Position numbers and translations under genes: made by a program. Below, piece by piece: positions 1-64,000 of a DNA stretch of 64,000 bases (the first letter of the stretch is position 1; the number at the start of each line of letters is the position of its first letter). Source of the DNA: Vulcanisaeta distributa JCM 11213 (lineage in GTDB: Archaea > Thermoproteota > Thermoprotei > Thermoproteales > Thermocladiaceae); contig BBCS01000002.1 in NCBI GenBank assembly GCA_001316125.1, forward strand, positions 124,001 to 188,000. The letters run 5' to 3'. The notes under the pieces are model-generated. The model saw only the letters and a list, made by a program, of their open reading frames with translations, had not been told where the DNA came from and searched no databases.

Positions 1-417
1 CTTAGCACACATGTGCATGCAACGGAGAGCGAGCTTAAGGTTGTGAGGGCATTACTCAATTTATTACCTCCTCAGTATAGGGATGGCATTAACATTATGA
101 GGAGTGGCGGCCAGGGACACTTCGGTAATGATATAGATACTATAAAGGTGCAGTTTAAGGGACAGGATGCACTGCAGATCGCTCAGCACATACTTAAAAC
201 CGTTGACCAATTAGACAAGGAGATAATCCTTGTTACCATTAATAGTAGGTTTAGTGACGGTAAGTTATACCTCAGATTTAACAAACAATTGGCATATAAC
301 GGCGTGGTAAGGCTTGATGACGGTGACGACGTGATTAAGGTAATAATAAGGTTTAATCATTGGATAATTAAGAATGAGGGTATTGAAAACGTAATCAAGC
401 AATTAATGCAGCACTAA
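1..417 (+). CDS. Archaeal RNA-binding/exosome-associated protein (COG1325, PF01877-like), 5' end outside window
   Basis: Predicted RNA-binding protein of the archaeal 'exosome subunit-like' family; a role in RNA processing is inferred from the family. Family marks are HATE near the start, GHFGN at about residue 36 and LYLRFNKQ at about residue 85, followed by a DGDDVIKV stretch. A GTG at base 13 could start translation, but the frame stays open to base 1 and HATE is normally preceded by residues of the first strand, so the real start probably lies upstream. The stop overlaps the stop of the convergent ilvD by a few bases. No frame damage is visible. Confidence 0.72.
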
Positions 418-2102
418 AGCTTTGGCAGTGTCACAGCGCCCATGGACGCTGACGTGACTAACGACGCGTACTTAGCAAGTAAACCCCCCCTCGTGTACCT
501 AGGCGGTGGCGGTTGCCAATTCCTCAACCTCCTCCTCACTTCCTCCTCGGGCACGAGTAGGTCAAGTCGACCATTCTCCACATCGATCAACACCCTATCA
601 CCATCCTCAACAACCGCTATCGGTCCTCCAACGGCTGCCTCGGGAGCCACGTGACCAACCATTAAGCCGCGGGTAGCACCGCTAAACCTACCATCGGTGA
701 CTAATGCAACATCTTTACCCAACCCAGCCCAACGATGGCCGCAGTTACCCTAAGCATCTCAGGCATTCCTGGGCCACCCTTAGGACCCTCATACCTAATG
801 ACAACCACGTCACCCGGCCTAATCTCACCCCTCCTAATCGCCTGAAATGCCTCCTCCTCACTATTAAACGGCCTTGCCTTACCCTCAAATCTCATTAATT
901 CGGTGGCTGCAACCTTAATAACAGCACCCTCAGGCGCTAATGAGCCTTAAGTACCCTAATACCGCCCCAGGGCTTGATTGGGTTACTAACGTCCCTAACT
1001 ATGTGGTCATGCGGCACGTTTGGGAACTTATAGTTCTTCAAATTCTCCTCCAGTGTCTTACCCGTTATGGTGAGTACCTTACCGTTAAGTAGGCCCGCCT
1101 TTAGTAGCTTTAGCATGACCAGTGGAATGCCACCAACCGCGTCGAGGTCAGCCATTACGTAATCACCGCCAGGCCTTAAACTTGCTATATACGGGGGGGT
1201 CCTCCTCGATATCCTGTCAAAGTCATCAAGCGCCAACTTAACCCCAGCTTCATAGGCGATAGCTAATAGGTGAAGTATGGCATTGGTTGACCCACCCATT
1301 GCCATCAGCACTGTTATTGCATTCTCAAAGGCCTCATATGTCATGACATCCCTAGGCTTTATACCAAGTTCCATCGCGTTCATTAACGCAACACCACTCT
1401 CAACCGCGTACATTACCCTCCTAGCCGATGTGGCTGGTGGTGAGGCGCTCCCTGGCAAGGCCATGCCCAATGCCTCTGCTATGGCTGCCATGGTGTTTGC
1501 CGTGAACATGCCTGCGCAGGTTCCGTAGGTTGGGTGAGCCCTCTTTTCTATCTCATAAAGTTCATCCTCCGTAATCTTACCAGCAAGGTACGCGCCAATT
1601 GCCTCATGGACGTCTCGATAGTGAGTTTAAGATTACCGTAAAAACCAGGCTCTGCCGTTCCACCGTATAGGTAAATAGCTGGTATGTTTAACCTAGCCAT
1701 AGCCATTAGGATACCTGGTGTAGTCTTGTCGCAACCACCAATACCAACAAACCCATCAAATGCATGCGCATTAACCTGGGCCTCTATTGTGTCAGCGATC
1801 ACGTCCCTACTTACCAGGCTATACCTCATGCCCTCCGTACCCATCCCAATATTATCGTTAACGACTATTGTCGGCACCGTGAGCGGTGAACCACCACCTC
1901 TACGCACACCCTCCTTAACGTGAACCGCTAACTGAAGCGTATGTATATTGCACGGTCCAGCCTCACTCCATGCAGCAACAACGGCAACCAATGGCTTACC
2001 AATGTCCTCATCCGAAAAGCCTATGGACCTCAGAAAAGCCCTGTGCGGTGCGTTTAAGACACCACCATACCTCTCCTGACTTCGTAGGTTTACCTTGACC
2101 AT
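414..2102 (-). CDS. ilvD: Dihydroxy-acid dehydratase (frameshifted)
   Basis: Converts 2,3-dihydroxy-3-methyl acids to 2-oxo acids in valine, isoleucine and leucine synthesis; an Fe-S enzyme. Reading from the start, I see the IlvD N-terminus, [11 protein letters not shown] (cluster cysteine), [12 protein letters not shown] (second cluster cysteine) and the C-terminal VTDGRFSG and LAKYASLV regions, covering the usual length of about 555 residues. The frame breaks near 1611 (GAGGACG expected, one G missing), near 945 (GGG seen as GG) and near 722 (GGGG seen as GGG). Repairing one G at each site restores a complete family-like protein. A C7 tract near 484 adds an apparent extra Gly in the C-terminus. 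ATG 2102 is chosen; a TTG precedes it. Convergent with the upstream RNA-binding gene. Confidence 0.93.
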
Positions 2103-2208
2103 CAATAACCTATATATTAACTCTATTAAATTAATTCACTACTTAACACATTAGAATGAGGACTAACATAATACTTAATAATTCGGTTATAGATCAATAG
2201 TAATTTGT

Positions 2209-2679
2209 ATGTCGTTTACATTAACGAGCCCTGCCTTTAAATATGGTGAAAGAATCCCAAGGAAGTATACGTGCGATGATGTTGACGTAAGCCCACCGCT
2301 GCAGTGGTCGAATATGCCGGCCGGTACGAAATCCCTCGTCTTAATAATGGAGGACCCTGACGCACCGATAGGCGTGTTTACTCATTGGGTTCTGTATAAC
2401 ATACCACCAGATAGGACTGAGCTCCCTGAGAATGTGCCGAAGACTCCGGTCGTTGAGGGGGGGATAGGCATGCAGGGTATTAATGACTTTGGCAGAATTG
2501 GTTATGGTGGTCCATGTCCACCGAAGGGTCATAAGCCCCATAGGTACTTCTTTAGGTTATATGCGTTAAATACCGTACCCAACATCAGGCAGAGAGCTTC
2601 TAAGGATGAAGTACTTAGGATAATAAAAAATAGTATAATTGGTACCGCCGAGTACATGGGGGGGACGTACTCAAGGTGA
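2209..2679 (+). CDS. YbhB/YbcL-type PEBP family protein
   Basis: Small soluble phosphatidylethanolamine-binding-protein-like protein of 156 residues, the normal size of prokaryotic YbhB relatives; the cellular ligand is unknown. Ligand-pocket motifs are visible: DPDAP at 49-53, HW at 59-60, GPCPPKGH at 101-108 and HRYFF just after. The ATG at 2209 opens directly at the conserved N-terminal strand. Two G7 tracts (about 2457 and 2658) place Gly-Gly where relatives usually have one Gly, without breaking the frame. It stands alone between divergent ilvD and the convergent exporter operon. Confidence 0.9.
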   Translation: MSFTLTSPAFKYGERIPRKYTCDDVDVSPPLQWSNMPAGTKSLVLIMEDPDAPIGVFTHWVLYNIPPDRTELPENVPKTPVVEGGIGMQGINDFGRIGYGGPCPPKGHKPHRYFFRLYALNTVPNIRQRASKDEVLRIIKNSIIGTAEYMGGTYSR

Positions 2680-3575: not shown

Positions 3576-4579
3576 TCACCTCCTAGCTCTTGTGATAGTC
3601 CTTCTAAACCTCATGAACTCCTCAGAACTACTCTCCTCATCCCTAAGTCTCCTACCCGTGAACTCCAGGAATACCTCATCCATCGTTGGCTCCTTAATGG
3701 TTATGCTCGTAGCCCTAATACTGAGCTTATTAAGGGCCTCAAGGATTATTGGGGGGGCCGCCGTATTCCCGCTCTTAACCTTAAAGGTTATTGTGTTTCC
3801 ATTCACAGTAACTCCATTAACTCCGTCAATGCCCTCAATAACCTTCCGAGCAAGATTAACATCCCCATTAACCTCAATTGTTATCACATCGCCGCCAACC
3901 CTCTCCTTGAGTTCTTTGGGCGTTCCGATAGCGAGTATCTTGCCATGATCGATGATTGCAATCCTCTCCGCATACCTATCAGCCTCCTCTAGGTAATGCG
4001 TGGTCATGAATATGGTCATACCATACTGCTTCCTAAGCCTATACACATAATCCCAAATCGCAGCCCTCGTCTGAGCATCAAGACCCAGCGTAGGCTCGTC
4101 CAGGAAGAGTATGGCGGGCCTATTAATAAGGCCCATGGCGATCTCCAACCTCCTCCTCATACCACCTGAGTACGTCTCAACCTTCCTATCAGCCGCGTAT
4201 GATAACTCCACTAAATCAAGCAACTCAGCAGCCCTCTCCCTAGCCTCCCTCTTGGTATTCCATACAACGCGGCAACAAGCATTAAATTCTCCCAACCCGT
4301 TAAATCCTCATCAGCCGTATACTCCTGGGGGAACAACACCTATGCTCTCCCTAACCTTGGCCGGCTGCTTAACCACGTCATAGCCATTCACTACTGCAGT
4401 GCCCTCAGTCGGCTAGTTACTGTGGTTAACATCTTTATTGTCGTTGTCTTACCAGCGCCATTTGGCCCTAAAAACCCGAAGATCTCCCCCCCATAATACA
4501 CCTCAAAGTTTATGTGATCAACAGCGGTAAAGTTTCCATAACGCTTCGTTAAATTTATTGCCCTAATAGCCACTTCCAT
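3576..4579 (-). CDS. ABC transporter ATP-binding protein, DrrA-like (frameshifted)
   Basis: ATPase partner of the adjacent ABC-2 permease. It has Walker [10 protein letters not shown] near residue 41, a Q-loop VPQE, signature [12 protein letters not shown], Walker [13 protein letters not shown] and the H-loop MTTHY, followed by the C-terminal extension common in DrrA-type exporters (TPKEL onward). Three indels split it: one G lost near 4413, C4 seen as C5 near 4327, and one A lost near 4257. The start is taken as ATG 4579, which lies about 30 bases after a minus-strand TATA-like TTTATATTTAA (about 4605-4617); a GTG at 4603 would add eight non-conserved residues. Confidence 0.88.
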
Positions 4580-6253: not shown

Positions 6254-6968
6254 TTGGTTCAGGTAACAATAATTAGGTTAATCGGTTATAGAGAATGGAC
6301 AGAGACTCTCGGCCCCCCCGATAGGGAGCACGTAATACAGCAAATCCAAGCTCAATTACATAGGGAATTAGTTCACGTATTCTCAAGACTCAATGCCTGG
6401 GCCCACCCACTTAGGTATGACTACTTACTTGCAATAACTAATGGTCTAAACAATGGTGAATTAACGAATGCGATTAAGGAACTTAGTGAGTATAGCCCAG
6501 TCCCTCTATCTAGTGGTACGTATGCAGACATTAATCCCAGGGTTGCTGAAAGAGAGGCCTTCAGGCTTGCAATGAAGGCTTCCTCAGGTGAATCGTTAAT
6601 TGGGGGGGGTGGTGATGATGGTTATGTGGCTATCGCCATATAGACCTAGTTGATTCAACAACGAGTACTGAGTGGACATCCAGTTATCAATTATATGAGC
6701 ATGTGTGGAGTGTGGTTAATCAAGTAAGGCTTTATCTAGCGCCCCCCATGGAGGTATCACACTTTACCTAGGTGGCGATAATATTGTGTCGATTGTGCAA
6801 CCAACGATTAACGAGAATGACCTTAAACCACTGGCTAATCTAATAAATGCAAGGATAGGCGTTGGCATAGCACGTAGTGGTAGAACTGCGATGAAACTCG
6901 CAACCGAGGCACTCGATATTCTCAGGTCTAGGAATGGGCATGGGGTAATGATGCTTAAAGAGAACTAA
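6254..6968 (+). CDS. arfA: GTP cyclohydrolase III / IIa (frameshifted)
   Basis: Archaeal GTP cyclohydrolase that makes 2-amino-5-formylamino-6-ribosylamino-4(3H)-pyrimidinone 5'-phosphate, the first step to riboflavin and F420 in many archaea. The N-terminus (IRLIGYREWTETLGP) and the GGGDD / YLGGDN region match the ArfA (MJ0145-like) family. The reading frame breaks after VAIA near 6640 (C3 seen as C2) and near 6741 (C4 expected, C6 present); repair gives about 237 residues ending in HGVMMLKEN. The start is TTG 6254, after a TATA-like TTTTTAAA about 40 bases upstream. A creatininase-family gene at 32163-32892 could supply the next step. Confidence 0.88.
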
Positions 6969-10577: not shown

Positions 10578-12586
10578 ATGTCTGAGGCAGGTAAGAGGAT
10601 AATATTTCATGAATTATTATCACCTGAGGAGGCATTGAGTAAGGTGTTTAGTACTGTTAAGGTTGAGCCTTTGGGAACAGAGGTAGTAAGTATCGAGGAG
10701 AGCTATGGAAGGGTTTTGGCAAGGGATGTTTATTCACGAATTGATGTACCGCCATTTGATAGGGCGACAATGGACGGGTTCGCAGTTAGGGCTGAGGATA
10801 CGTTTGGAGCCGATGAACTAAACCCAGTTAAGTTAAGAGTTATTGGTAATATTGAGACTGGGGCTGAGGAGTTGCCTCAGGTTAATTCTGGCGAGGCCGT
10901 TGAAATAGCGACTGGCGCCCCCCCAATGCCCCCCCTGGCGCCAATGCGGTGGTCATGGTCGAGTATACTAAGCGTAGTGGTGATGAGTTGGTGATATACC
11001 GCTCAGTGACGCCAGGTGAGAACGTAATGTCAGCGGGTTCGGACGTAATGATGGGCGAATTAATACTCAGGAGGTGCACAGTGATTAGGGAGAGGGAGGT
11101 TGGTCTATTAGCTGCTGTGGGTATTGATAGGGTTAAGGTATTTAGGAGGCCTAGGGTTGCGATAATATCCACGGGTAATGAGTTAGTTAGTCCAGGTAGG
11201 GAATTGGGTCGTGGCAAGATTTACGACATAAACACATACACAATAGCCCACGCGGTTAGGTCAATGGGCGCCGAACCCATCATCATGGGTATTGTTAGGG
11301 ATGACATCAATGAGATGAGGGATGCCGTGAATAAGGCGTTAAGTATAGGCGATTTAGTGCTTCTGTCGGGCGGGACGTCAGCGGGGGGGCTTGCCGACCT
11401 AACGTATAAAGTGCTTGACGAGATAGGGCCTCCCGGCATAATAATCCATGGGCTTAAGGTAAAGCCTGGCAAGCCCACGGTCGTGGCCGTGTCCAGAGAT
11501 AATAAATTGGTTATTGGCTTACCTGGATACCCAAGTTCGGCATTGATGATATTCAACATAATAGTCAAGCCGATACTGGCCAAAATGTTATGTACGGGGG
11601 GGATTGATGAGATTAGGATTAAGGCGAGGCTGGCAATTAGGGCCGACGGCGCCAAGGGCAGGAGAGCCCTTTACCCAGTTAGCCTGGTTGATACAGGCCA
11701 CGGAGTAGTGGCCTACCCATTACCCGCTGAGTCTGGTGCCATAAGCACACTTGCCTTTGCCGACGGCTACATAGCTATTCCCGAGACCGTGGAGTACCTG
11801 GATAGTGGTGATGAGGTTGAGGTTACGCTATTCACCCATCAGTACATGCCGGCCAATCTATACATAATCGGTAGCCATGACCTAGGCCTCGATGTGCTAA
11901 TACCAATGCTGCCAGGCTTTGTTAGGGCTAGGGTTATCAACGTCGGCTCCATGGGCGGATTATATGCCGTTAAACGTGGCGAGGCTGATGTGGCGGGCCT
12001 GCACCTCGTCGATGAGGAGACTGGGCAATACAACGTACCATACATGGTTAAGTATAATGTTAACAATGCCGTCCTGATTAGGGGGGGTTATTTCAGGGAG
12101 CAAGGGTTAATAGTGCCCAGGGGGGGCAACCCTAAGAACATAAGGGGGGGTATTGAGGATTTGTTGAGGGGGGGTGATGTGAGGATTGTTAATAGGAATA
12201 AGGGTGCAGGCACTAGGTTCCTACTTGACATAAAGTTGAAGGAGATAGCGAATAAGATGGGTGTTAAATTCGAGGAGTTGGTGAGGAGGATCAACGGCTA
12301 CTATTACGAGGTTAAGACCCACACGGCAGTAGCTGCCGCGGTTGCCCAGGGTAAGGCTGATGCCGGTGTTGGTATTAGGGCTGCGGCCGCGATGTACGGC
12401 CTGGACTTCATACCGCTCGGTTGGGAGAGCTACGACTTCGCAATACCAATTGATAGGCTTGAGAAGGATAGCGTTAAGGCATTCCTCAACATGTTAAGGA
12501 GTAGTGAGTTTAAGAATGCACTCAGTAAATTACCTGGCTATAGGGTTCCTGATGACATTGGTGAGGTTATTTGGAAAGGTCAATGA
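10578..12586 (+). CDS. moeA: MoeA-type molybdopterin molybdenumtransferase fused to a periplasmic-binding-like domain (frameshifted)
   Basis: Inserts molybdate or tungstate into adenylylated molybdopterin. The N-terminal MoeA part (about 1-400) shows PFDRATMDGFAVR, IATGAP, IISTGNE and LLSGGTS...DLTYKVL. The C-terminal part (about 410-665) is a solute-binding-like domain (NPKNI, NRNKGAGTRFLLD, HTAVAAAVAQG) known fused to MoeA in many prokaryotes and thought to sense or bind ligand. The frame breaks near 10928, where CCC-CCT-GGC (C5) is written as C7; the preceding GCC-CCA is also C7. At least six further C7/G7 tracts add one residue each without loss of frame. It probably serves the tungsten aldehyde oxidoreductase encoded at 43.8 kb. 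Confidence 0.9.
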
Positions 12587-12618: not shown

Positions 12619-14106
12619 TTACTTAATGGGTAGTTTATCCACAAAGTAAACCTTCCTAAGCTTCTTATAAAACGCCACCCTGGAGTTCACAAAATCAATC
12701 AACTCCTTATCAGACACCTTACCCCCTATACTCATCACGCAGCACCACGTACGCAACAGGCAACTGACCAATGCTCGGGTCCTCAGCCTGCTCACCAGTT
12801 ACATAGGCCTCCTTAACGGCTGGGTGTCTCATCAATATTATTTCCAGGTCCCGTGGAAATATTGGGTAGCCCTTGTACTTAATCATCCTCTTCTTAACGC
12901 CCCCCCTGAAGTAAAGTAAGCCCTTGTCGTCCATAACCATCAAGTCGCCAGTTAATAACCAACCATTATGAAAGGCCTTCCTCGTATCATCCGGGTCCGA
13001 GTAGCCCTTCATCACCCAAGGAGCCTTTGCAGCTAACTCACCAACACTACCCACGCCTAATTCCTTAGATGGGTCGTTTGAGTCGACAATCTTTAACTCG
13101 GCACCTGGTATTGCCGAGCCAACCGTACCAGTCACATCCTTATACCTGACTGGCTGCACCGTGAGTACATACGCCTCAGTTAAGCCGTAGAACTGCACAA
13201 GCGGTACACCAAATCTCTGATAAAATCCTAGCTGAGTCGCTGGCGGTAATGGCGCAGCTGCTGAGAGGGCAAGCTTAATGACGACAGTGCATTAGGACTT
13301 AAGTCCCTGTTATTAAGTATCTGGTCAAACATTAAGGGCACGCCTGCAAACACCGTTATTCCATACCTACGTATTAACTCGGGTGTGTCCTTAGCGTCAA
13401 AGTGCCTGGCAATAACTGCCTTGGCGCCTCTCACGAAGCCGACATGAGCTCAGTAAGACCAAGTATGTGGGATAGCTGGGCAACCACAAGTACGGAGTCC
13501 TTGGGGGGGTTTAGCTCTATCGCCTCGCCAAATGCGTAAGGCCCTGAGTATAGGCTAAAGTATGTATGCCAAACCTGCATTGTCCTCCCGGCAATACCTG
13601 CATAGTAGTAGATTAGCCCAACATCATCACTCCTAACCTCGACTGGCCTGCCTATTGAGGGGGGGCGTTACCTAACAACTCCTGAAAGCTCAGTATACCT
13701 TGTCCAGAGACGCCAACACCAATAACCCTATACTTAGATAAAACAGCGGTCTCCCTCTCAATGACTGACCTATCGGCAATAACGACCTTAGGAGCCGAAT
13801 CACTCAATTGGTAATCAAGGTCCTCAGATATGGTTAATGGATCTATGAGGACGGCAGACGCGCCAAGAATCCACGTCGCAAATAATGAGATGACGGCCTC
13901 CATACTATTACTCATGATTATGGCAACCCTATCTCCATGACCAACATCAAACCTACTTAATGAGCCTGCAAGCCTGGCGCTTTACTGTAAAGTTCGCCGT
14001 ACGTTAATGAGGCACCGCTTTCATCAATTAGGAAAACATCGTTTGGGCGACTCCTTGAATAATCAAGTAATACCTCAACTGGATTTTGATATTGATAGTT
14101 TATCAT
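12619..14106 (-). CDS. AMP-forming acyl-CoA synthetase (ANL superfamily), frameshifted
   Basis: Adenylate-forming acid:CoA ligase of about 490 residues once repaired. N-terminal half: DYSRSRPNDVFLID and GDRVAIIMSNS; middle: VPLMFDQIL and FYGLTE; C-terminal: WLLTGDLMVMDDKGLLYF and KRMIKYKGYPIFPRDLE, the hinge and acyl-CoA ligase signatures. The P-loop region (YYYAGIAGRTM) is weaker than the usual TSGTTG form. Breaks occur near 13990, 13661 (C5 expected, C7 present), 13440, 13285 and 12722. The start ATG 14106 overlaps the 3' end region of the next ligase gene upstream (stop at 14112), so the two ligases are probably co-transcribed. The acid substrate is unknown. Confidence 0.82.
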
Positions 14107-14111: not shown

Positions 14112-16012
14112 TCACGGCTTTATATAACCACGCTCAATTAGTGCCGCCTTTATATCATCTAGAGTCCTAACATCATCTAATGTTGATATGTCCCCATACG
14201 GCTCATTCTTCACCAAGGCCCTTAGTAACCTCCTCATTATCTTACCTGACTTAGTCTTCGGTAGTCTCCTTACGATTATTACATCATCAACCTAGTACCT
14301 GACGCTCTGGCGAACTCCTTAATATCGTTGATTAGGGCCTCCGATGGAGTCTCCTCTGGTTTAAGTACGACGAAGGCCAGTACCTTCTCGCCACCACCAG
14401 GCGCCGGTGCGCCAACGACGGCTGCCTCAGCGACTGCCTTATGCCTTGCTAGGATGCCCTCTATGTCCATTGTGCCGAGTCTCTCGCCGGCAATGGTCAG
14501 TATATCATCAGCCCTACCCAGCACGTATAGGTAACCATCTAAGTCGTAGAAACCATAATCGCCTGTGTAGAAATACCCTGGGAACCTACTCCAGTACGTC
14601 TTAACTAGTCTCTCGTAATTAGGGTCATTCCACATCTTAGCCATTGCCGGGTTTGGAATGGTAATGACTATGTAACCCCCCCTCTGCCCAGGCGGCAGTG
14701 GGTTACCGTCATCGTCAACCACAAGCCATTTACTACCTGGGAATTGAATACCAGCCGAGCCAGGCTTAAACGGTATCTCGCCAAGTCCATATGGCGTCGC
14801 GGCAATTGGTATTAGGTGTTCCGTCATCCAGTAGGCATCGGCGATCATGGTATTTGGCAATTGCTGTATATACCACTCAGCAACGCCTGGGTTAAGCGTC
14901 TCCCCTGTATTGAGTATTATCCTTAGGCTTGACAAGTCCCCCTTAAGTGCGTCCTCGCCAATGCTTCTAATTGTGTATAACGTGGTCGTACTACTCCAGA
15001 TTAAAGAAACACGGTACTTCTCAACGATCCTGGCAAATAGGTCCCTCTTGTAACCCACGAATCCCTCAAACAGGAGACCTGTTAATCCCATCACGGGTAT
15101 TGTGTATAGATTTGCCATGGGCCACACGGGCCACCCTAACTCACTTATTGTCCACCAAACATCGGTGTCCTGTGGGTTAAATAACGCCCTAAATGTCCAA
15201 TTAAGGCCTATTGGGTAACCACCATTACTCTGCCAAAGCCCCTTGGGCCTACCCGTAGTACCTGACGTGTAGTATATGGTGGCTGGCTCATTAGCCTCCA
15301 CAGGGACTGGCTCGACATAGACCTTACCCTTTGGAGCTATATCCTCATAGACAAGGTCTCTACCCTGTTTAACATTGAAGTCAGAGAATCCCCCCCTGGA
15401 TACAACTAGAACCTTCTCAACAGGTGTTTGGTACTTCTCGAGTGTCCTATCCACGAGATCCTTCATCCTAACCTCATCACCAGCCCTAAATCCCTTCGAT
15501 GCAACTATGAATACCTTCGACCCACAATCCTGAAGCCTATATGCAAGGGTTTCCTCACTTAAACCAGCGTAGTGAATTACCAATGTGGCGCCGAGCCTAT
15601 GCACGGCGAGCCCAAAGTAAACGGCCTCTGGCGTGTTGGGCATCATCATCGAGACCGTATCACCCTTCTTGACGCCAAGCTCCTTGAGCACATACGCGGC
15701 CCTATTAACCTCCCTGTAAAGGTCCCAATAACTAATGACTCTACTATCGCCCCCCCTCTCATTCTCATAATAAAACGCGACCTTATTGGCTTTAGTCAGT
15801 ATGTGCCTATCAACAGCGTTATAACTAATGTTAGATAACCACCCCCCCTGAACCAATAAACATCCGGCGCCCTGCCCTCAAATATTGACTTCGGCCTTTC
15901 AAACCACGTAAGGTAATCAGCCTTATCAGCCAGAATTTGGCCGGGTTCTCAGAGGCTCAATAGCCATTCGTCTTATCTTATCTAAGGAATAGAACTTTTG
16001 GTTTACCGCCAT
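14112..16012 (-). CDS. Acetyl-/propionyl-/acetoacetyl-CoA synthetase family protein (frameshifted)
   Basis: ACS-type AMP-forming ligase of about 630 residues. Visible signatures: P-loop [56 protein letters not shown], and the C-terminal lysine motif [11 protein letters not shown], which is downstream of a one-G loss near 14292. The N-terminus ([16 protein letters not shown]) is separated by a G7 tract near 15842 that should be G5, and by another indel near 15930. ATG 16012 is preferred because a minus-strand TATA-like element lies 22-32 bases upstream. It forms a tandem with the ANL ligase downstream. Acyl specificity is uncertain. Confidence 0.88.
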
Positions 16013-24282: not shown

Positions 24283-26097
24283 GTGTCATCAGGTAAGGGT
24301 AGGATCGTCTACATAAGTGGACCCGTGGTTAAGGCTGAATTACCTGGTGCATTACTCTACGAGTTAGTCTTTGTTGGAGAACTTGGTCTCTTTGGTGAGG
24401 TCGTTAGGATTCAGGGCGACATGGCCTTCATACAGGTTTACGAGGAGACAACGGGATTAAAACCTGGTGAACCCGTTGTCAGAACTGGCGAACCACTTAG
24501 TGCCTGGCTAGGGCCTGGCATACTTAATAGGGTTTATGATGGTGTTCAAAGGCCATTACCATTGATATTTGATCTAACGAAGAGACCCTTCGTCGCCAGG
24601 GGTATTAATTACGAGAAGGCACCACCACTGGACTTCAATAAGAAGTGGAGGTGGATACCGAAGGTTAAGGTTGGCGATGAGGTTGAGGTTGGCGACATAC
24701 TTGGTATCGTTCCAGAAACACCGCTGATTGAGCATAGGATCCTCTACCCACCAATATACAGGGCTGGCGGTGTTGTTAAGTACGTAGCCCCCCCTGAGGG
24801 TGAGTACACAATAGATGATGTGATTGCGGAGGTGGAGACTAAGGAGGGCACGGTAAAGGTTAAGATGTGGCATAAGTGGCCTGTGAGGAGACCGAGGCCA
24901 TTTAGGGAGAAGTTACCGCCTGTCGAGCCATTGATAACGGGTATTAGGACCATAGACACCTTATTCCCAATAGCCATCGGCGGCGCGGCCGCTATACCTG
25001 GGCCATTTGGCAGTGGTAAGACGGTAACAATAAGGACATTGGCAATGTATAGTGAGGCTAGGTTGGTATTCCCTGTGCTTTGTGGTGAGCGTGGTAATGA
25101 GGCTGCTGATGCACTGCAGGGATTGCTTAAGCTCGTTGACCCAAACACTGGTAGACCGTTAATGGAGAGGACTACGATCATTGTAAACACGTCCAACATG
25201 CCCGTAGCGGCTAGGGAAGCAAGTATTTACATGGGTGTCACCATAGCTGAGTACTTCAGGGACCAGGGCTATGACGCGTTCCTAATGGCTGACTCAACAA
25301 GTAGGTGGGCTGAGGCTATGAGAGAGGTTGCCTTGAGAATCGGCGAGATGCCCAGCGAGGAGGGATTTCCGGCGTACTTACCTACTAGGTTGGCTGAGTT
25401 CTACGAGAGGGCTGGCAGGGTAGTAACCCTCGGCAAGGGTAACAGGCTTGGCTCAGTCACTATTGCGGCATCAGTATCACCACCCGGCGGCGACTTTACG
25501 GAGCCTGTGACGAGCCATACCCTCAGGTTCATAGGTGCCTTCTGGCCCTTAGACGCCAAGCTAGCCTACTCAAGGCATTACCCAGCCATTAATTGGCTAA
25601 TGGGCTTTAGTAGGTACGTTGATACGGTGGCCGAGTGGTATCAGAAGAATGTCGCACTTGACTGGAGGGAGCTCAGGGATGAGGCTGTTAGGATACTAAC
25701 TAGGGAGGCTGAGCTTCAGGAGGTCGTGAGGATACTCGGCACTGAGGCACTCAGTGAGCAGGAGAAGCACCTACTAAACGCGGCATTCCTGATTAGGGAG
25801 GGCTTCCTAAAGCAGGATGCGTACCACCCAGTCGATGTTAAGTCATTACCACCCAAGCAGTATTGGTTATTGAGACTAATCATAACGTTCTATAGGAAGG
25901 GCCTTGAGGCGATAAACCACGGAGTGCCTGCCTCAGCGCTTAGGGAGTTGGACGTGGTTAAGAGACTGGCTAGGCTTAGGATGGAGGTTAGGAATGAGGA
26001 GTATAAGAAGTTGGTTGATTACGAGCAGGAGTTGATAAGCGCCATTGAAAACCTGGTTAAGCAGTACGAGACCCAGAGGGTAACGGCTACGGCTTAG
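24283..26097 (+). CDS. atpA: A-type ATP synthase catalytic subunit A
   Basis: Catalytic nucleotide-binding subunit of the A1Ao ATP synthase, 604 residues, intact. It shows the N-terminal barrel (YISGPVVKAELPG), the A-subunit-specific non-homologous insert (about 110-200), Walker A GPFGSGKT at 240-247, catalytic GERGNE at 268-273, LMADSTSRWAEAMRE, and SVSPPGGDFTEPVTS. A C7 tract near 24788 gives VAPPEGEYT where relatives generally have a single Pro. That is the same +3 pattern seen in many other genes here, so the extra Pro may not be real. Confidence 0.97.
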   Translation: MSSGKGRIVYISGPVVKAELPGALLYELVFVGELGLFGEVVRIQGDMAFIQVYEETTGLKPGEPVVRTGEPLSAWLGPGILNRVYDGVQRPLPLIFDLTKRPFVARGINYEKAPPLDFNKKWRWIPKVKVGDEVEVGDILGIVPETPLIEHRILYPPIYRAGGVVKYVAPPEGEYTIDDVIAEVETKEGTVKVKMWHKWPVRRPRPFREKLPPVEPLITGIRTIDTLFPIAIGGAAAIPGPFGSGKTVTIRTLAMYSEARLVFPVLCGERGNEAADALQGLLKLVDPNTGRPLMERTTIIVNTSNMPVAAREASIYMGVTIAEYFRDQGYDAFLMADSTSRWAEAMREVALRIGEMPSEEGFPAYLPTRLAEFYERAGRVVTLGKGNRLGSVTIAASVSPPGGDFTEPVTSHTLRFIGAFWPLDAKLAYSRHYPAINWLMGFSRYVDTVAEWYQKNVALDWRELRDEAVRILTREAELQEVVRILGTEALSEQEKHLLNAAFLIREGFLKQDAYHPVDVKSLPPKQYWLLRLIITFYRKGLEAINHGVPASALRELDVVKRLARLRMEVRNEEYKKLVDYEQELISAIENLVKQYETQRVTATA

Positions 26098-26098
26098 G

Positions 26099-26694
26099 TT
26101 AAAAACCCTGAATGCTCATTACCGTGCTAATTAGCGACCTTATTACCTGGTAATTCTCACTCCCACATAACACAATTGTGTATTTATTGCATGAAATACT
26201 ATCTAGCTTGCTTAACTCCTCAGCAGCCTCCTGCGATAACTCATCGAGGTAGTTATTAAGCTTAAGTATTAGGAACCTATTCTGCGGGCACACGAATTTA
26301 AGGAATAATGCTGCGTCAGAACCATTCTTTATTGCGATGTCCCTAAGCCTTACGACTGAGTCCTCATTAATACTCCGGCTTATTACGGATACGTAGCACC
26401 TCCTGCACTCGCACCTAAATACCTGGGGGGGAACTTCGTGACATCCCTTATCTCATCAATGCCTAAATCACGTAATAAGTCATTAAGTAACTCCTCACCC
26501 TTACTCGTCAACTCCGCCCCCCCACCCCCCCTCATAACCCTAATGGCCCCCCCTTTATCCCTAAGCTCATTGAGCACACGCCTCACGACACCCTCCCCCC
26601 CCATGCCTGAGACAGCACTCAGTGAGTATCTGCCCATTCTTCCATACCTCTTAAGCATCAGGAGCACCGTTAACTCCTCAGCGCTCATTTGCAT
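26099..26694 (-). CDS. DUF4443-like winged-helix protein with Cys pair (frameshifted)
   Basis: Predicted DNA-binding protein of about 197 residues. The N-terminus is a winged helix (LLMLKRYGRMGRYSLSAVSG...VVRRVLNELRDKG...LTSKGEELL) like archaeal DUF4443 proteins. After KFPPQ the correct frame continues FRCECRRCYVSVISRSINEDSVVRLRDIAIKNG, a C-x-C-x2-C motif, then a C-terminal domain ending MSIQGF. The break at 26424 fits a C5 tract written as C7. Four more C7 tracts lie in the winged helix, giving doubled Gly. Convergent with atpA, two bases apart. Confidence 0.68.
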
Positions 26695-26764: not shown

Positions 26765-28269
26765 GTGCCTGGTGGTTATCATTTGCCCAGTAAGGGCATG
26801 TACACAAACTCAAGGGAATTGCCAATAATAGCCTATAACACTGCATCAAAAAGCCTCGAGAAGATAACCCTACTACGCCCTGGCCTGGCTAGGATCTACG
26901 TCTGCGGATTGACTCCGTACGATTCAATGCATGTTGGTCATGCAAGGACGTTTGTGTTTTACGACATATTTAGGAGATACCTAGAGTACCTGGGGGGGTT
27001 GAGGTTAGGTTTGTGACGAACTTCACGGACATCGATGACAAGATAATTAACAAGGCAAGGCAGGAGTTTGGGGTGAATTGATTAATAGGTGGTACGAGGT
27101 ACCCAGCAGGTACATTAGGGAGTTCTTTGATGCCATGGATAGGCTATACGTGAAGAGGGCGTATGCATACCCAAGGGTTACTGAGAACATAAATGACATG
27201 CTAAGGTGGATTCAGGAATTGGTAGGTAAGAACTTGGCCTACGTAAGTCCGGATGGCTCCGTGTACTTCGACATAACCAAGGTCCCCCCCAGGTACGGCG
27301 AGTTCTCCGGGCAGAAGATCGAGGACTTAGTGGCGGGTGCAGGGTAGAGCCTGAACCAGGTAAGAGGAACCCGCTGGACTTCGCACTCTGGAAGTCGTGG
27401 AGTGAGGGTGAGCCGTGGTGGAACAGCCCCCTGGAGCCCAGGCAGGCCTGGCTGGCACCTGGAGTGCGTGGTAATGTCCAGTAAGTACCTCGGCGTGCCC
27501 TTCGACATACACGGTGGTGGGCAGGACCTAATATTCCCACATCATGAGAATGAGATTGCCATTGCCAGGGTTTACTTCGGCATTGATTACTTCGCTAGGT
27601 ACTGGATACACGTTGTTGGTGACGATTAAGGGGCAGAAGATGAGTAAGTCCCTCGGCAACATAATACCGATAATGGAGGTGCTGAGGAAGTATGATGGCG
27701 AGGTACTGAGGCTTTACTATGCCATGACCCAGTACAGAAAGCCCATGGACTTCGACCCAGACTCCCTGGACCAAGTCAAGAATTCACTGATGAGTGTATA
27801 CGCGGCTTATGACATGCTGACCGAGGCAATAAACGAGGCAGCTGACATCGGCGACAGGGATGCTGAGTTATTAAGTAGGGTTAATGACTTTGTTAATTCC
27901 TTCGAGGAATCATTAAATAATGATATCAACACGAGTGGCGCAGTCGCGGCGCTAATGGACTTCGCGAGGTACATAACATCCACGGTCATCTATAACACAC
28001 AACACTACTCAAAGAATGCCTTAACAAATGCATTAACGGCATTTAGTGACCTGGCAAACATACTCGGCATTCTAAATAGGACGAGACTACCACCATCGCT
28101 AGTGTCATTGATAGATACGTTGATAAGGGTCAGGATGCAACTAAGGGCTAGGAAAATGTTCGATATAGCCGATGAGATTAGGAACGAACTTAGCAAACTG
28201 GGCGTTGTGGTGAGCGACGTCGGCAACAAGACGTATTGGTATATCGATAGGGACAAACTGACCCAATGA
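26765..28269 (+). CDS. cysS: Cysteinyl-tRNA synthetase (frameshifted)
   Basis: Class I aminoacyl-tRNA synthetase charging tRNA-Cys. HIGH-type motif [16 protein letters not shown], zinc-site [10 protein letters not shown] and [23 protein letters not shown], then the helical DALR-like C-terminus ([16 protein letters not shown]... [14 protein letters not shown]...DVGNKTYWY). Breaks: near 26992 ([17 protein letters not shown] needs G5 but has G7), about 27080, 27342 (one A lost), 27432 (C4 seen as C5) and about 27622. All pieces are in order on one strand. A G/C tract near 27284 gives an extra Pro. Confidence 0.92.
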
Positions 28270-28295
28270 GATTAAATGACATGACTTGGACCTGC

Positions 28296-28329
28296 AGAGT
28301 CGCCGTAGTTATATATACACGGCGACTCT
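28296..28329. repeat. Perfect 11-bp inverted repeat around an AT-rich loop
   Basis: Arms AGAGTCGCCGT (28296-28306) and ACGGCGACTCT (28319-28329) pair perfectly; the 12-base loop is agttatatatac. It sits in the 154-base gap between cysS and the glucoamylase gene. It could be an RNA hairpin at the 3' end of the cysS transcript, or a two-armed operator flanking a TATA-like TATATA. Confidence 0.75.
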
Positions 28330-28423
28330 TCCTGCCCAAACTCATTATGGGCATTATCAATTAGTGCCCTGCAGTTTAGTAGGGCTTTCCAGTAAATACT
28401 TTTATTCTCCTTAATCAGAATTA

Positions 28424-33110: not shown

Positions 33111-33133
33111 GATTTGAAACACGCTGCTTTGGG

Positions 33134-37494: not shown

Positions 37495-38668
37495 GCAGGC
37501 CAACAATACTTGGTTATGTGAGACTGATGGTAAGGTTGGTATTAGGAATTACCTACTCGTGATGTCGACTGTCGTGTGCTCAAGCTTCGTAACCCGCAGA
37601 ATTGCCGACCAGGTGCAGGGCGCTGTGGCTGTTGAGAACCCATTCGGTTGTGGTCAACTTGAGCCTGACCTTGAGATTACCAAGAGGACGCTGATTGGTA
37701 TGGCTAAGAATCCAAACGTGGGTGGTGTCCTAGTCGTTGGTCTTGGTTGTGAGCAGATTCAAGCCGATGACTTGGTTAAGGAGATTGAGAAGACTGGTAA
37801 GCCCGTGGAGAAGGTCGTAATTCAGGAGGTTGATGGTGGGACACCAGCGGCGATTGAGAGGGGTGTTACGTTACTTAGGAGGATGGCTGAGGAGGTACTT
37901 TCACAGAGACCTGAGGAGGTTGATTTATCGAATCTCGTCATGGGTGTTGAGTGCGGTGGATCAGATGCAACATCAGGTTTGGCCGCAAATCCCGTAGTTG
38001 GTTACGCCTCTGATAAGTTGGTTGATCTAGGCGGCACGGTAATACTCTCTGAAACCCCCCCTGAAATGATTGGTGCCGAGGACATACTCGCCAAGAGGAC
38101 CGTGTCTAGGGAGGTTGGTGATAAAATAATTAGGGTTGTTAGGAAGTGGGTTGACTTAGCCGCGTCTTATGGTGTCGACCTCGTTGGGACGCAGCCGTCG
38201 CCAGGCAATATCGCCGGTGGTTTAACGACAATTGAGGAGAAGTCCCTGGGCGCCATAATTAAGGGTGGTTCCAGGCCAATACAGGGTGTTGTTGACTATG
38301 CCGAGGAGGTGAGGGGGGGTAAGGGTTTGTGGATAATGGATACGCCTGGCTACGACATAATGTCCGTGGTTGGCATGGTGGCTGGCGGCGCTACCCTGGT
38401 CGTGTTCACCACCGGCCGCGGGACGCCAACGGGTAACCCAATAGCACCTGTGATTAAGGTCACGGCAAACCCATACACGGCTAAGAAGATGCGTGAGAAC
38501 ATAGACTTCGACGCAAGCACCGTTACCCTCGGCCAGGAAACCATTGAACAGGCCGGTGAGAGATTGTTCAAGCTCATAATTGACGTGGCCAGGGGGGGCA
38601 AGCCGACGAGAGCTGAATTACTCGGGTTTAGGGAGTTCGTGATACACAAAATAATACCATCATTCTAA
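37491..38668 (+). CDS. UxaA-type dehydratase large subunit (altronate/galactarate dehydratase-like)
   Basis: Fe-dependent sugar-acid dehydratase family of about 392 residues. ATG 37491 gives MSRPTILGYVR, joining the main frame (DGKVGIRNYLLVMSTVVCSS) after one G is restored near 37514; an in-frame GTG at 37469 is the alternative. Signatures: NPFGCGQLEPD, GLGCEQI, GVECGGSDATSGLAANP, LSETPPEMIGAE and MDTPGYDIMSVVGMVAGGATLVVFTTGRGTPTGNPIAPVIKV. C7/G7 tracts give extra Pro or Gly at ETPPEM, VRGGKG and RGGKPT. The exact acid (altronate, galactarate, sulfolactate or another) cannot be told from sequence alone. Confidence 0.85.
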
Positions 38669-39070: not shown

Positions 39071-39970
39071 CTACCCATCACTAATACCAGCAATTTCATA
39101 GTACAACTTCAGTAAGGCCTGCGTCCCCCCCTTCTCGCCCAGCCCCCCCTAGCCACTAAGGCATTGTATAATTGCAGTGTTAATGCCGTGCCTGGAAGCG
39201 GCACGTTAAGCCTATTAGCCGTTTCGATGGCGTACCTGAGGTCCTTCTTCAGGTGGGCTGCCCTAAACCCTGGTTCGAAGTCTCCCTTCATCATCTTTGG
39301 CATGTAGTACTGAACAGTGAATGAGTTGGCAGCACCGGTAGATAGCACTGTGAATAGCTTCTCCATGTCAATGCCCGCCTTTTTAGCGAGTGCCATCGCC
39401 TCGGCTACGGCGAGCATGTCAATACCAACAACTATTTGATTGAGGAGCTTGAGCATCTGCCCATTACCAACATCGCCGGCGTATATTATCGTCCTACCCA
39501 TTGCCTGGAGTATTGGTTTAACCCTCTCAAAGACCTCATACTTACCGCCGACCATTATTGTTAATGTGCCCTGCCTAGCCCCCCCAATATCGCCACCAGT
39601 CACCGGTGCGTCCAGGAACTCAATGCCGTACTTACCTAACTCCCTGGCGAAGTACCTGGCGTGGTCAGGCGAGTTCGTGCTCATATCAATGACTATAAGC
39701 CCTGGGTGGGCCCCCCCGTGGACAACACCATTAGGGCCCAGCAGGACCTCCTCCACATCCGGCGCGTCTGTAACCATGTCAATCACGACGTCGGACTTCT
39801 CGGCAACTTCCCTGGGGCTCTCGGCGACGGGAATACCAAGCCTCGCAAAGCTCTGTCTTTGACCTGGTCCTGTTATAAACAATTAGTGGGAAGCCGGCCT
39901 TATGGATGTTCATGGCCATGGCACTACCCATTATACCAAGCCCTATGAAACCCACCCTAAGCCTCTCCAT
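39071..39970 (-). CDS. Beta-hydroxyacid dehydrogenase, 3-hydroxyisobutyrate/tartronate-semialdehyde reductase family (frameshifted)
   Basis: NAD(P)-dependent reductase or dehydrogenase of about 299 residues. It has Rossmann GFIGLGIMGSAMAMNI, substrate motif LDAPVTGGDIGGARQGTLTIMVGG, catalytic Lys in GNGQMLKLLNQ and the C-terminal helical domain. Breaks near 39875 and at 39141 (G5 expected, G7 present; the true C-terminus then ends ALLKLYYEIAGISDG). The intact DAPVTGG motif fits hydroxyisobutyrate, tartronate semialdehyde or succinic semialdehyde-type substrates. It lies in a region of sugar-acid genes. Confidence 0.85.
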
Positions 39971-45683: not shown

Positions 45684-45697
45684 TTTTAATTTATTAA

Positions 45698-47379: not shown

Positions 47380-47501
47380 ACAACGCTTACCTCATAATTA
47401 AAAGTTTAAGGGTTATTACTAACCTTATAATTTTAAGTAAGTCAATAATACACATTAAATTTAATATTTATTACTTAGGAAGTATTAATAAAATATTTTC
47501 G

Positions 47502-48822: not shown

Positions 48823-48839
48823 AGCTATATGTAATGCAT

Positions 48840-49736: not shown

Positions 49737-49806
49737 TAAGATAGTTTTTATATTATCGTATTTAAATACTAATTATTACGCGTAAATATTAGTAACTGTT
49801 CATTTA

Positions 49807-50496: not shown

Positions 50497-50559
50497 ACTG
50501 ATAAAACATATTTATATCTTTATAAGTTTTTAGTGATTAATAATTGAAAAACTACTAAT

Positions 50560-51450: not shown

Positions 51451-51542
51451 AATGTGAAATTATTACTAACTAAAATCAAATAAAGAAGCAATTTAACAGA
51501 TTAGAATACTTACTGAAATACCCTCATTATTAAATAGTTTTA

Positions 51543-52967: not shown

Positions 52968-53071
52968 ACCTTATTTTACGTTTCTTAAAAACAAATTCAA
53001 ATTAATTTATTTTAATTCTTATTGACGTATAAGATTATGAATATAAATACCCATGTAAAAAATTAAGTCTA

Positions 53072-54084
53072 ATGGATATAAGGTTTTCTGAGATAATCCT
53101 GGAGGGTAGGCCTTCGTGGTTTTGGCGTGTTCTTAGGCAGGTTGGTGTTGAGTATGCCACGGGTGTCCTGCCTAGGTGGTTTACGGATTGGAGGCAGGTT
53201 GAGGAGGAGAGACCGTGGGATTACGGTCCTTTAATGAGGTATAAAAACATGCTTGAGGATAATGGTTTGAAATTGGTTATTATTGAGGATAATCCGCCGA
53301 TGGATGGTATTAGGTTTGGTATTCCCAGGGTTAGGGAGGAGGAGCTTGATAATGTGGCTAGGCTTATTGAGAATATGGGTAGGTTGGGCATTAAGATCTG
53401 GGTTTATAACTGGATGGCTGGTATTGGCTGGGCTAGGACTCATACGCATATTCCTGGTAGGATGGTATGTATGTGAGTGGTTTTAATTATAAGGATATTG
53501 AGGGTGCGCCGCCGCATAGGCTCGTTAAGGAGTACGGCATTGATGCAAATAGGCTTTGGGATAATCTGAAGAATTTCCTTGAGTATATCGTGCCGCTTGC
53601 TGAGCAGAGGGGGGGTGTTTACCTGGCTATGCATCCTGACGACCCGCCAATACCTGAGTTTAGGGGGGGTGTGCCTAGGATCATGAATAGTGTTGAGTCC
53701 TTCGAGAAGTTGGTTAGCCTTGTTAGGAGTGAGCATAATGGCATTACCTTCTGCATGGGTAATTTCACGCTCATGACTGATGACGTGCCTGGAGCCGTTA
53801 GGAGGTTGAAGGATAGGATTTACTTCGTCCACTTCAGGGATGTGAAGGGTGATAGGTATAATTTTGTTGAGACATTAATTGGTGAGGGTAAGACTGACCT
53901 AGTCGAAGCCGCCAGGGCGATGCTTGAGATAGGTCATGAATGGTATATAAGGGTTGATCACACACCAACTCTTGAGGGCGACACCGAATTGGGTGCCGCG
54001 GGCTATAATTACCTCGGTAGGCTCTACACGATTGGTTATATTAAGGGTTTGTTCACGGCCGTGGCTAAGCAAATGAACAAGTGA
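53072..54084 (+). CDS. Mannonate dehydratase-like / sugar-phosphate isomerase-like TIM barrel (frameshifted)
   Basis: TIM-barrel enzyme of about 337 residues resembling D-mannonate dehydratase UxuA. Seen in order: [80 protein letters not shown]...[36 protein letters not shown], and [13 protein letters not shown]. These metal-site histidines and acids fit UxuA. One G is probably lost near 53462 (AGGGATGG seen as AGGATGG). With UxaA-like and KdaD-like enzymes nearby, a role in hexuronate or related sugar-acid breakdown is likely. Confidence 0.75.
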
Positions 54085-55128: not shown

Positions 55129-56014
55129 TTATTTACCTAACTTTATCACCGGCGTTCTTTGCGTTCCTAGCTTTGTTATTGATATTTCGACTATGTCGCC
55201 ATGAATTAGGGTTATGGGTCTTGGTGGTATTATTGCTGTTCCTGTTGATAGTAATGTTCCGTCAGGAACAGTATTATCCCTGATTAAGTACTTTATTTGT
55301 TCCTCAATTTTCCTCCTCATCTTAGACGTGCTTATGCTACCCTCAAATATTACTGAGCCACCCCTTATTATCCTCATGCTGATGGTTAAGTTATATGGAT
55401 TACTAACCTCATCAGGCGTCACTAGGAATGGCCCAATGGCGCAGGATCCATTATAAATCTTCGACTGCGGCAGGTAAAGTGGGTTTTGAGCCTCCAAGTC
55501 CCTTGCCGATACATCGTCACTAATTGTATAAGCCAATACTTTACCGCTTGAGTCTATCACAACGCCAAGTTCAGGCTCAGGTAGTGTCCACTCAGAGTCG
55601 CTCCTGATGGTTATTGGTTCGCCATGGCCAACGCACCTATTAGCCGTGCCCTTAAAGAAGATCTCCGGCCTCTCAGCGTCGTAAACAAGCTCGTAGATCG
55701 TCCTCCCCCCCCTTATCATAGCCACATCCTCCTCACTATACCTAGCCCTGGCAACCTCATAAACAATGCCACTACCCCCCCAGACCTCAGGTGGGTCGTA
55801 TGGCTTCGTAAACCTAAGCCCCCCCTGTACGTATAATCCCTAATCAATAGCTCATCAACATTGACATTAACCTCGGGACCAAGCGGCACCCCCCCTTGCC
55901 CTCTGAGTGGAGTTTTAGTGCTGTGATTGAGTCGCTTAGTAATACGTAAACCCTGTCATTAATCATTACGAAGTTCCCTACCCAACCACCGTTGATGAGT
56001 CTGAAGATTTTCAT
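55129..56014 (-). CDS. 2-keto-3-deoxy-D-arabinonate dehydratase-like (FAH superfamily), frameshifted
   Basis: Closely resembles the Sulfolobus KdaD enzyme, which converts 2-keto-3-deoxy-pentonate to 2,5-dioxopentanoate. The N-terminus MKIFRLINGGWVGNF, TKPYDPPEVWGSGIVYEVARARYSEEDVA, RPEIFFKGTANRCVGHGEPI, SEWTLPEPELGVVID (metal Glu pair), YTISDDVSARDLEAQNPLYLPQSKIY and KMRRKIEEQIKYLIRDN all match the family in order. Two G7 tracts (55808, 55892) should be G5 and break the N-terminal frame. About 295 residues. With the adjacent enolase-superfamily dehydratase and aldose dehydrogenase it fits an oxidative pentose pathway. Confidence 0.86.
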
Positions 56015-56594: not shown

Positions 56595-57752
56595 TTAAGT
56601 AATGTACCTTCTCAATTTCTCCTCATTTATCTCAATACCCAGCCCTGGCCTATTGGGTATTTCCACATCGTCCCCCCCTTAAACACCTCCACTGGTTCAT
56701 TGGTCGTATCGTAGGCCAGTGGATTCCTCTCAACATAGTAGTATTCGTACGTTGGTGTGAAGGTTATGTGGCTTGGTAGTGATGCTATGAATTGCAGTGT
56801 CGCGGCCCTGCACATGGCTCCCGATAATCCCACGTGGAATGTCATGGGTATGCCGAAGGCATCTGCCAGCGCCGCTATTCTCATGGCCTCTGTTATACCA
56901 CCGATCCTGGCTATGTCCGGCATTGCAATGTCCACAGCCTCCCTAATCATGAACTCAAGCCACTGGTACTTAGTGAATAGTGTCTCGGCGGCGGCTATAG
57001 GTATGTCGAGGGCTTGGCAACCCTTGAGTAAGCCTCAATATTGTCGGGTGGTACAGGCTCCTCGAACCAGAGTACGTCGTACTTCTCGAGCATCCTACCG
57101 ACCTTAATGGCCGTGGACACATTATAAGCGGTGTTGGCGTCAACCATAATCTCGACCTCACTACCCAATGAGTCCCTTATAGCCTTAATCACGGCCTTGT
57201 CCATGTCATAGCCCCTACCAATCTTAACCTTAACGTACCTAAACCCCTCCTGAACTAACCTCTCAACCTCCTTAACCGTGTCTTCAGGACTCATGAAGAG
57301 TACGGATGATGCGTAGGCCTTGACCCTATCCCTAAAGGCACCACCGATCAATTTATACACTGGCTTCCCGAGGTACTTACTTGATGTCCCATAGGCTAGG
57401 TCGACCCCCAGATAGGGCTTCCACGTAATAACCGGCATAATGCCCGCGGATCCTCATTGCGGAGAATAGCTGTTCCCAGAGGACTTCGCTGTCCAGTGGG
57501 TCTTTGCCGATAAGCATGGGCTTGAATAAACTATTAATGACTGAGGCTGCGGCTTCAGGGGGGGCCTCCCTAGCAATCGCCTCACCCCCCCAGCCAATTA
57601 ACCCCCCCTCATCAGTCACTACCTTAACGTAAACCGCCGTGAAGCCATGACTAATCCTTGAAGCAACATCCTCATAAAACCCCCCTAAAACCCGTGACGG
57701 GTTTGCCAACGTAAGCCTTAGCCACGTATGCAGTAACGTCGGTTATCCTCAT
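56595..57752 (-). CDS. Enolase-superfamily sugar-acid dehydratase (frameshifted)
   Basis: Mandelate-racemase-group dehydratase of about 383 residues, probably acting on an aldonate such as arabinonate, xylonate, gluconate or galactonate. It has RISHGFTAVYVKVVTDEG in the capping domain, GVDLAYGTSSKYLGKPVYKLIGG, the catalytic KxK (RYVKVKIGRGYD), metal ligands in IMVDANTAY, WFEEPVPPDN and AAAETLFT, and the HVG His. Breaks near 57680, 57420, 57015 and 56676 (AAG-GGG-GAC needs G5 but has G7). The product of aldose dehydrogenase next door would be its substrate, and the KdaD-like enzyme would use its product if the sugar is a pentose. Confidence 0.85.
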
Positions 57753-62134: not shown

Positions 62135-62189
62135 TAATTGATAGTGGGATTACCGCATTTTAAGGAATCCCCCCCTGAAAACCAACTAC

Positions 62190-63004: not shown

Positions 63005-63110
63005 AGTAATTAATAAGTATTAATAATGTTATTCATTAATTAAGAAAAATGCTTCATGAAGGCTCCCTGCAATACACGTTAATTCTTATTATATACTTAT
63101 ATTGCGTGTA

Positions 63111-63512
63111 ATGTCATTAAGATTTATTAATTCATTAATAATGAAACACTATGTGACTTTGTCGATTGAGGGGGCTAATGACGTTATTACCCACCTGCTT
63201 GGGGGAGGGGTGTTGATATTAGGACTGATAGGGTTGTCCTTGACTCGAGGTTTGAGTTTGATGTTTATGGTACCAATGGGCGGTTGACGATAGTCGGCGA
63301 GGCTAAGACGAGGGCTAGCCCCCAACACTGTTAGGAGGGTTGCTGAGAAGATTGATGAGGCTATCAGGGCAATGCCAGACAAATTCCCCCCCGGCAGAGT
63401 CATTAAGGTCATTCACTGCCTAAGGGCAATGCCGGGAGCAGTCGAGGAGGCCAATAGGCTTGGTATTTGGTTCCTTGAGTCTGGTAGGGAGAGGAATTCA
63501 CCGGGTATTTAA
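63111..63512 (+). CDS. PD-(D/E)xK-like nuclease-family small protein (frameshifted), function unknown
   Basis: From ATG 63111 the repaired product (about 130 residues) reads MSLRFINSLIMKHYVTLSIEGANDVITHLLGEGVDIRTDRVVLDSRFEFDVYGTNGRLTIVGEAKTRASPNTVRRVAEKIDEAIRAMPDKFP. The pattern FEFDVYG...IVGEAKT has the D...E-x-K core of archaeal restriction-nuclease-like DUF proteins. Two tracts (G5 and G4 near 63202 and 63208) each look one G too long, and another indel lies near 63322. A TATA-like TTATATACTTATA is 11-24 bases upstream. Activity is not established. Confidence 0.5.
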
Positions 63513-64000
63513 TGATTTTGCAATGCCTAATTCGCTTATTAACTTAATTAGAGACTGAATGGGAGTATCACTGCTTGTATCCACACTGATTAGGTTAAGT
63601 GACTTAGCCAATGCATTATATATTATCCACTGTCTCGGTAATGTCCTAGCAGTCGGTTCACGGCCTTTACGCCTGATTAGGGTCTTGAGGTCGGCGATTA
63701 TAAACACATTTCTGCAATGCTTAAGCGCCAACGCCAGTGTCGCCCTTCCCCCCCACAGCGTCTTGAGGAAGCCTGGCTCGGTGGTTACGCAGACCCAAAC
63801 CAGGAAATCCAGAAGCCCCCCCCTCTCGCCAATCACGGTCTCGTAAATGCTGGGCATTATGAACCTGAAGAACCAATTGGGTAGTACTGATATGAATTCC
63901 AGGAACCACCAAAGGGCCTTAGGTTTTTCGGTATTGAAATTCCGTAATAAGGATTATCAATCCCCCCCTCATGCTTGGGAATAACGCCAGGAACCTAGCC
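63498..64000 (-). CDS. Possible thymidylate-kinase-like P-loop protein, 5' end outside window
   Basis: C-terminal part of a larger gene. Readable in order from the window edge: NPYYGISIPKNLRALWWFLEF, FRFIMPSIYETVIGERG (a DR/GERG-like lid region), FLVWVCVTTEPGFLKTLWG, CRNVFIIADLKTLIRRKGRE, YNALAKSLNLISVDTSSDTPIQSLIKLISEL. The last blocks resemble the distal half of dTMP-kinase-like enzymes, but the P-loop lies outside the window, so this is tentative. A frame change lies near 63930, and C7/C8 tracts near 63748, 63815 and 63962 add residues. Convergent overlap with the preceding gene. Confidence 0.4.

Follow-up and report, generated by a model that had tools for sequence, protein, structure and literature searches.

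Seven-base G/C runs in a Vulcanisaeta distributa draft genome as a probable homopolymer-length artefact of sequencing or assembly

The window, as we call the whole 64,000-base stretch of Vulcanisaeta distributa JCM 11213 DNA analyzed here, is rich in G or C runs of exactly seven bases, which raises the question of whether these tracts belong to the organism or arose in the making of its sequence. An initial annotation, drawn up from the letters, had put their number at about 120, with few runs of six or eight, and had suspected a systematic consensus effect on run length, keeping a real tract-length bias open as the alternative.

Run lengths in the window and in its nearest relative

The estimate proved accurate: over all 64,000 bases we counted 122 exact seven-base G/C runs (66 C, 56 G), next to 69 runs of four, 35 of five, five of six, ten of eight and none of nine or more. 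The length histogram proposed by the annotation as a check thus peaks at seven for G/C and is ordinary for A/T, with a smooth fall from 169 runs of four through 47 of five and seven of six to none of seven or more. At the window's G/C content of 46.5%, an order-1 Markov model of its sequence yielded a mean of 10.1 and a maximum of 18 exact seven-base runs in 50 simulations, versus the 122 observed.

The genome nearest to the window, G001, consists of one contig of 2,374,137 bases and has 30% of the sampled 31-letter words in common with it. G/C runs of at least four bases are not commoner in the window (241 in 64 kb, or 3.8/kb) than in G001 (648 in 160 kb, or 4.1/kb), so that pre-existing runs look lengthened. 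We aligned the two sequences after run collapse, requiring three matching columns on each side of a run. Under this rule 56 of the 122 seven-base runs were comparable, the other 66 having no clean flanks and falling outside the comparison, and they faced a run of four in 52 cases, of three in two and of five in two. The conversion of G4 into G7, which the annotation had surmised, is therefore what the comparison with the relative displays, the relative being shorter at the window tracts. Viewed from G001, its 106 G/C runs of four appear in the window as four in 33 cases, five in 15, six in one, seven in 52, eight in one and shorter in four, and its 11 runs of five as four in two, five in two, six in one, seven in two and eight in four. 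The further idea that runs of four and five both end at seven thus holds for those going from four to seven, but runs of five end at seven or eight and some runs of four end at five.

Outside these runs the two sequences agree, with the same length in 676 of 735 G/C runs of three and in 67 of 70 A/T runs of four. Such a pattern, with run lengths differing from a close relative and the remaining sequence agreeing, is the one expected of a consensus homopolymer-length artefact. A real tract-length bias or phase-variable G tracts would be expected to give tracts common to close relatives, and this was not seen, 52 of the 56 runs facing runs of four. On the strength of these alignments, the seven-base runs of the window are very probably for the most part runs of four or five bases that have been given too long.

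The changes fall largely within genes. All but one of the 106 compared runs of four, including all 52 that read seven, lie inside G001 open reading frames (ORFs) of at least 90 amino acids. Changes at 20 of the G001 four-base runs (16 lengthened, four shortened) break the frame of the G001 ORF, and the window has 20 ORFs of at least 250 amino acids versus 31 in a 64-kb G001 stretch overlapping the same region. Three motifs singled out for an extra Gly or Pro do carry it in comparison with G001 (Table 1). The same extra residue was found in an orthologue only once, in the AtpA of JCM 11217 (VAPPEGEY), an assembly with the same error, while AtpA of JCM 11216 reads VAPEGEY although that assembly is affected elsewhere. 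Nine sites had been described as frameshifted by exactly +2; in the 11 runs examined at or near them, this shift relative to G001 was recovered at eight, the exception being 15842, where a change from four to seven is accompanied by a nearby one-base loss. At several of the eight sites the sequence suggests that the window strain may have a true run of five, created by an adjoining substitution.

Table 1. Lengthened runs in the window and their counterparts in G001
Coordinates	Strand	Run in window	Compared with G001	Remarks
1..64000	.	122 G/C runs of seven and 10 of eight		Spread across whole window
4327..4331	.	G5	G4 (+1)	Inside 340-aa ORF of G001; one of the 15 runs going from four to five
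6313..6319	.	C7, one added Pro (LGPPDRE)	LGPDRE	GTP cyclohydrolase is the initial annotation's name
10918..10924	.	C7	C4 (+3)
10929..10935	.	C7	C5 (+2)
13659..13665	.	G7	Net +2
15842..15848	.	C7	C4 (+3)	One base lost separately, about 11 bases away
24788..24794	.	C7, one added Pro (VAPPEGEY)	VAPEGEY	In ATP synthase alpha/beta-family gene 24283-26097, + strand (Pfam)
26425..26431	.	G7	Net +2
26992..26998	.	G7	Net +2
38055..38061	.	C7, one added Pro (ETPPEM)	ETPEM	UxaA is the initial annotation's name
39143..39149	.	C7	Net +2
55819..55825	.	C7	C5 (+2)	Taken as the site annotated at 55808
55889..55895	.	C7	Net +2
56672..56678	.	C7	C5 (+2)

Apart from run lengths, comparison with G001 brought out several features of content and arrangement. 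In a blastn comparison with 120 kb of G001, about 9 kb of the window (44513-53458) went unmatched, although its flanks are adjacent there; we read it as a putative strain-specific segment or insertion. The end of the window (63248-64000) matches G001 in the opposite orientation, as at a small inversion or the edge of a mobile element. Some 34-67 bases at 28274-28340 have several copies in G001, in both orientations, and may represent a small, possibly palindromic element, and about 96 bases at 33016-33111 match two more places in G001 (94% and 76% identity), as another repeated element.

Affected assemblies and the 23S rRNA gene

Among 25 genomes of the family of G001, three stood out in the number of exact G7 runs on both strands: G015 (V. 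distributa JCM 11217, BBBJ) with 3857, G016 (V. distributa JCM 11216, BBBI) with 4803 and G012, of the genus Thermocladium, with 7958, as against 0-119 in the others. Over a compared stretch of roughly 7 kb, contig 7 of G015 is identical to NZ_BBBJ01000007 of JCM 11217, and the run counts of the two agree as well; those of G016 are identical to the counts for the genome behind L047. Exact G7 runs outnumbered exact G6 runs by a ratio of 14 in G015, 16 in G016 and 7.7 in G012; in the remaining 42 of the order's 45 genomes this ratio did not exceed about 0.27. G025 has ordinary run lengths. Completeness was 67% for G015, 67% for G016 and 47% for G012 at 1.9-2.4 Mb; low completeness also occurs in some unaffected genomes and is not specific by itself.

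In a wider sample of 398 genomes from the phylum, one that did not contain G012, only JCM 11217 and JCM 11216 exceeded a count of 350, and the same two were the only carriers of the seven-base peak among 80 loci kept from an AtpA search. JCM 14467 was clean there, so the fault is not common to all JCM drafts. Two further sets had no outlier in the thousands: 292 genomes of the phylum that contains a Thermoplasmata metagenome-assembled genome (MAG), with a maximum of 865, and 81 genomes of the family that contains a Thermococcus MAG, with a maximum of 127. High counts of other genomes were looked into in 20 stretches of 12 genomes; the 17 stretches of 10 genomes that hold letters (the other three being N) had no peak at seven and a fall-off with length, at 51-74% GC. 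The lengthening thus follows the assembly or project and not the clade, two of the three affected genomes being named JCM strains. The window may derive from a further strain sequenced in that project.

The affected Vulcanisaeta sequences also resemble one another in detail. With a two-column flank rule, G001 runs of four read seven in 74 of 139 cases in JCM 11217, 33 of 81 in JCM 11216 and 56 of 117 in the window, and the confusion table of run lengths is the same in the three. The share of runs going from four to five among those staying at four or more was 17/110 in the window, 3/109 in JCM 11217 and 2/62 in JCM 11216.

Nearly all compared runs of four in the window lie in ORFs, and an rRNA gene was used to contrast coding with non-coding DNA. 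An ARAGORN search of the window returned no tRNA gene; in eight other stretches it returned one each in L015 and L021. One contig of the JCM 11217 assembly starts within the 23S rRNA gene; with runs compressed, it is 99.1% identical to G001. Within the coordinates of this large-subunit (LSU) gene there are 43 G/C runs of four (46 if three outside the gene are included), which read seven in 22 cases, five in eight, eight in one, the same in 11 and shorter in one; moreover, seven or eight is read at 15 of 19 runs of five and at all five runs of six. In the control genomes G013, G017 and G018, none of the LSU runs of four, five or six reads seven or eight. A covariance model of archaeal LSU rRNA gave one full-length match of 2760-2787 bits in G001 and in each of these controls, and no match in JCM 11216 or G012; in JCM 11217 its matches were fragmentary (1100, 151 and 36 bits; model positions 1116-2973), in part owing to the start of the contig within the gene. 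A structural RNA gene is thus affected in this sister assembly, the single one on which the rRNA comparison rests. Dozens of extra bases are not tolerable in rRNA. A 23S rRNA with such insertions could hardly work, and the extra bases are therefore absent from JCM 11217 cells; since the signature is the same, real expansion becomes very improbable in the window as well.

Could G001 itself be wrong, its assembly having shortened true runs of seven? We found no support for this reading. The LSU four-base runs of G001 agree with G017 at 58 of 59 sites, with G018 at 55 of 55 and with G013 at 17 of 23 (none of the remaining G013 runs being longer than six), and its full-length LSU score differs little from the scores of the other complete matches. 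In addition, where seven-base runs of the window could be aligned, MAG L048 and JCM 14467 also have four (4/4 and 6/7, respectively). We regard an error on the side of G001 as scarcely credible.

A real bias, by which replication or repair would expand G/C runs of four or five to seven or eight, would fit with an excess that is often three bases and so keeps the frame (52 of the 106 G001 runs), and with the position of all of these sites in ORFs. The latter point is empty, however, because virtually every compared run lies in an ORF anyway, and the change from four to seven is also abundant in the 23S rRNA gene of JCM 11217, which has no reading frame to keep. Frames are, moreover, broken as well, by 15 changes from four to five and two from five to seven; expansion shows no concordance by site with the sister assemblies (see below); and the feature is present in some members of two genera and absent from others. 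We consider such a bias highly improbable. The systematic consensus effect that the annotation favored is supported by the alignment with G001, the rRNA gene, the distribution by assembly and the broken frames, and the real bias that it had kept open is contradicted by the same tests. Judged from these sequence comparisons, the seven-base G/C runs are almost certainly a technical fault, that is, an artefact of sequencing or assembly.

Pattern and possible origin of the lengthening

On this reading, G/C runs of four or more were often overcalled in the assembly of the window and in three or more related public assemblies, mainly from four to seven and from five to seven or eight, while G/C runs of one to three and A/T runs came out nearly unchanged. 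A flow-based platform combined with a consensus caller might yield such a bimodal wrong length. As in consensus homopolymer errors of 454 or Ion Torrent data, changes are confined to homopolymers, frames are broken and apparent completeness is low. Ordinary errors of flow sequencing (454, Ion Torrent) are, however, mostly of one base and not base-specific, whereas the changes here are mostly of +3, spare A/T runs and runs of three, and are bimodal, with four or seven as the outcome. We see a flow-based consensus fault as having about an even chance of being the cause.

In the literature searched we found neither the sequencing platform of the affected assemblies nor a published description of this error in them. 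For another JCM draft, of 2014, the published method combined Ion Torrent PGM sequencing with Newbler 2.8 (PMC3961731). This speaks against an artefact from a long-read consensus or a run-length-encoding polisher in place of flow sequencing, as does the citation of the affected BBBJ assembly (JCM 11217) in 2016 (PMC5069417), before the tools described in 2020; in favor of such an origin is the sensitivity to calibration that run-length models can have, as described for Shasta (PMC7483855). We think a long-read origin unlikely.

Local determinants of the lengthening were also considered. An effect of flanking bases was not evident by eye, and with the three assemblies pooled gave p = 0.61 for the left and p = 0.058 for the right side. 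Codon phase had no clear effect in the pooled data (p = 0.13); in the window alone, phase 1 accounted for 33 of 52 sites going from four to seven versus 19 of 48 staying at four or going to five. Nor did expansion appear to be determined by the site: between the window and JCM 11216 or JCM 11217, 14 runs were long in both, nine and six in one only and five in neither (Fisher p = 1 in a small sample of 34 comparisons). This lack of concordance by site and of a clear dependence on flank or phase fits a noisy technical process that favors two results, roughly the true length and roughly three bases more.

As a separate observation, 11 of 22 runs read as five had C on the coding strand, versus 24 of 167 runs read as six or more and 21 of 87 unchanged runs (p = 0.0003, three assemblies pooled); 17 of these 22 runs going from four to five come from the window (for example, those at 4327, 12722, 22749 and 59374).

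Predicted G-quadruplexes and the reach of the error

We estimated G-quadruplex density on parts of each genome with a short G4Hunter-style version of the method. Regions per kb numbered 2.84 in the window, 2.64 in JCM 11217, 3.06 in JCM 11216 and 6.21 in G012, against 1.71 in G001; with runs of seven and eight counted as four and five, the values for the affected sequences were 1.75, 1.33, 1.39 and 3.53, respectively. The artefact inflates predicted G-quadruplex density 1.6- to 2.2-fold.

Thermocladium modestius JCM 10088 is listed among the most G-quadruplex-rich archaea, at 7.381/kb, in a table that also has Thermococcus celer JCM 8558 and Methanoculleus chikugoensis JCM 10825 (PMC7565180, Table 5). 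G012 is probably T. modestius: it belongs to the genus of L054 (Thermocladium sp. UBA166), to whose counts those of its congener G014 are equal, and its GC content is 50.9% in 240 kb versus 53.14% published. A published G-quadruplex-rich genome, that of T. modestius JCM 10088, is thus probably affected by the artefact. L054, an unaffected Thermocladium (55.6% GC, 22 kb), nevertheless has 6.06 G4Hunter-style regions/kb, so the high density in this genus may be largely real.

A further paper mentions long G runs in JCM drafts from distant archaea and sets the repeats concerned aside as having only two G runs each (PMC8044849). As here, the long G runs are unusual and occur in JCM drafts, and Thermocladium, the genus of G012, is involved; unlike here, they are not termed an error in the published description, on which this comparison rests. 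We can equally well imagine as doubt that a batch of culture-collection archaeal drafts from several phyla carries the same lengthening, and that part of the view of extremophiles as rich in G-quadruplexes rests on it.

A simple flag for such assemblies would be exact G7 being commoner than G6. In the collection searched, the affected assemblies represent their species. Genes are altered or broken by the error, which is accompanied by an apparent completeness of only 47-67% and can mislead studies of G-rich DNA.
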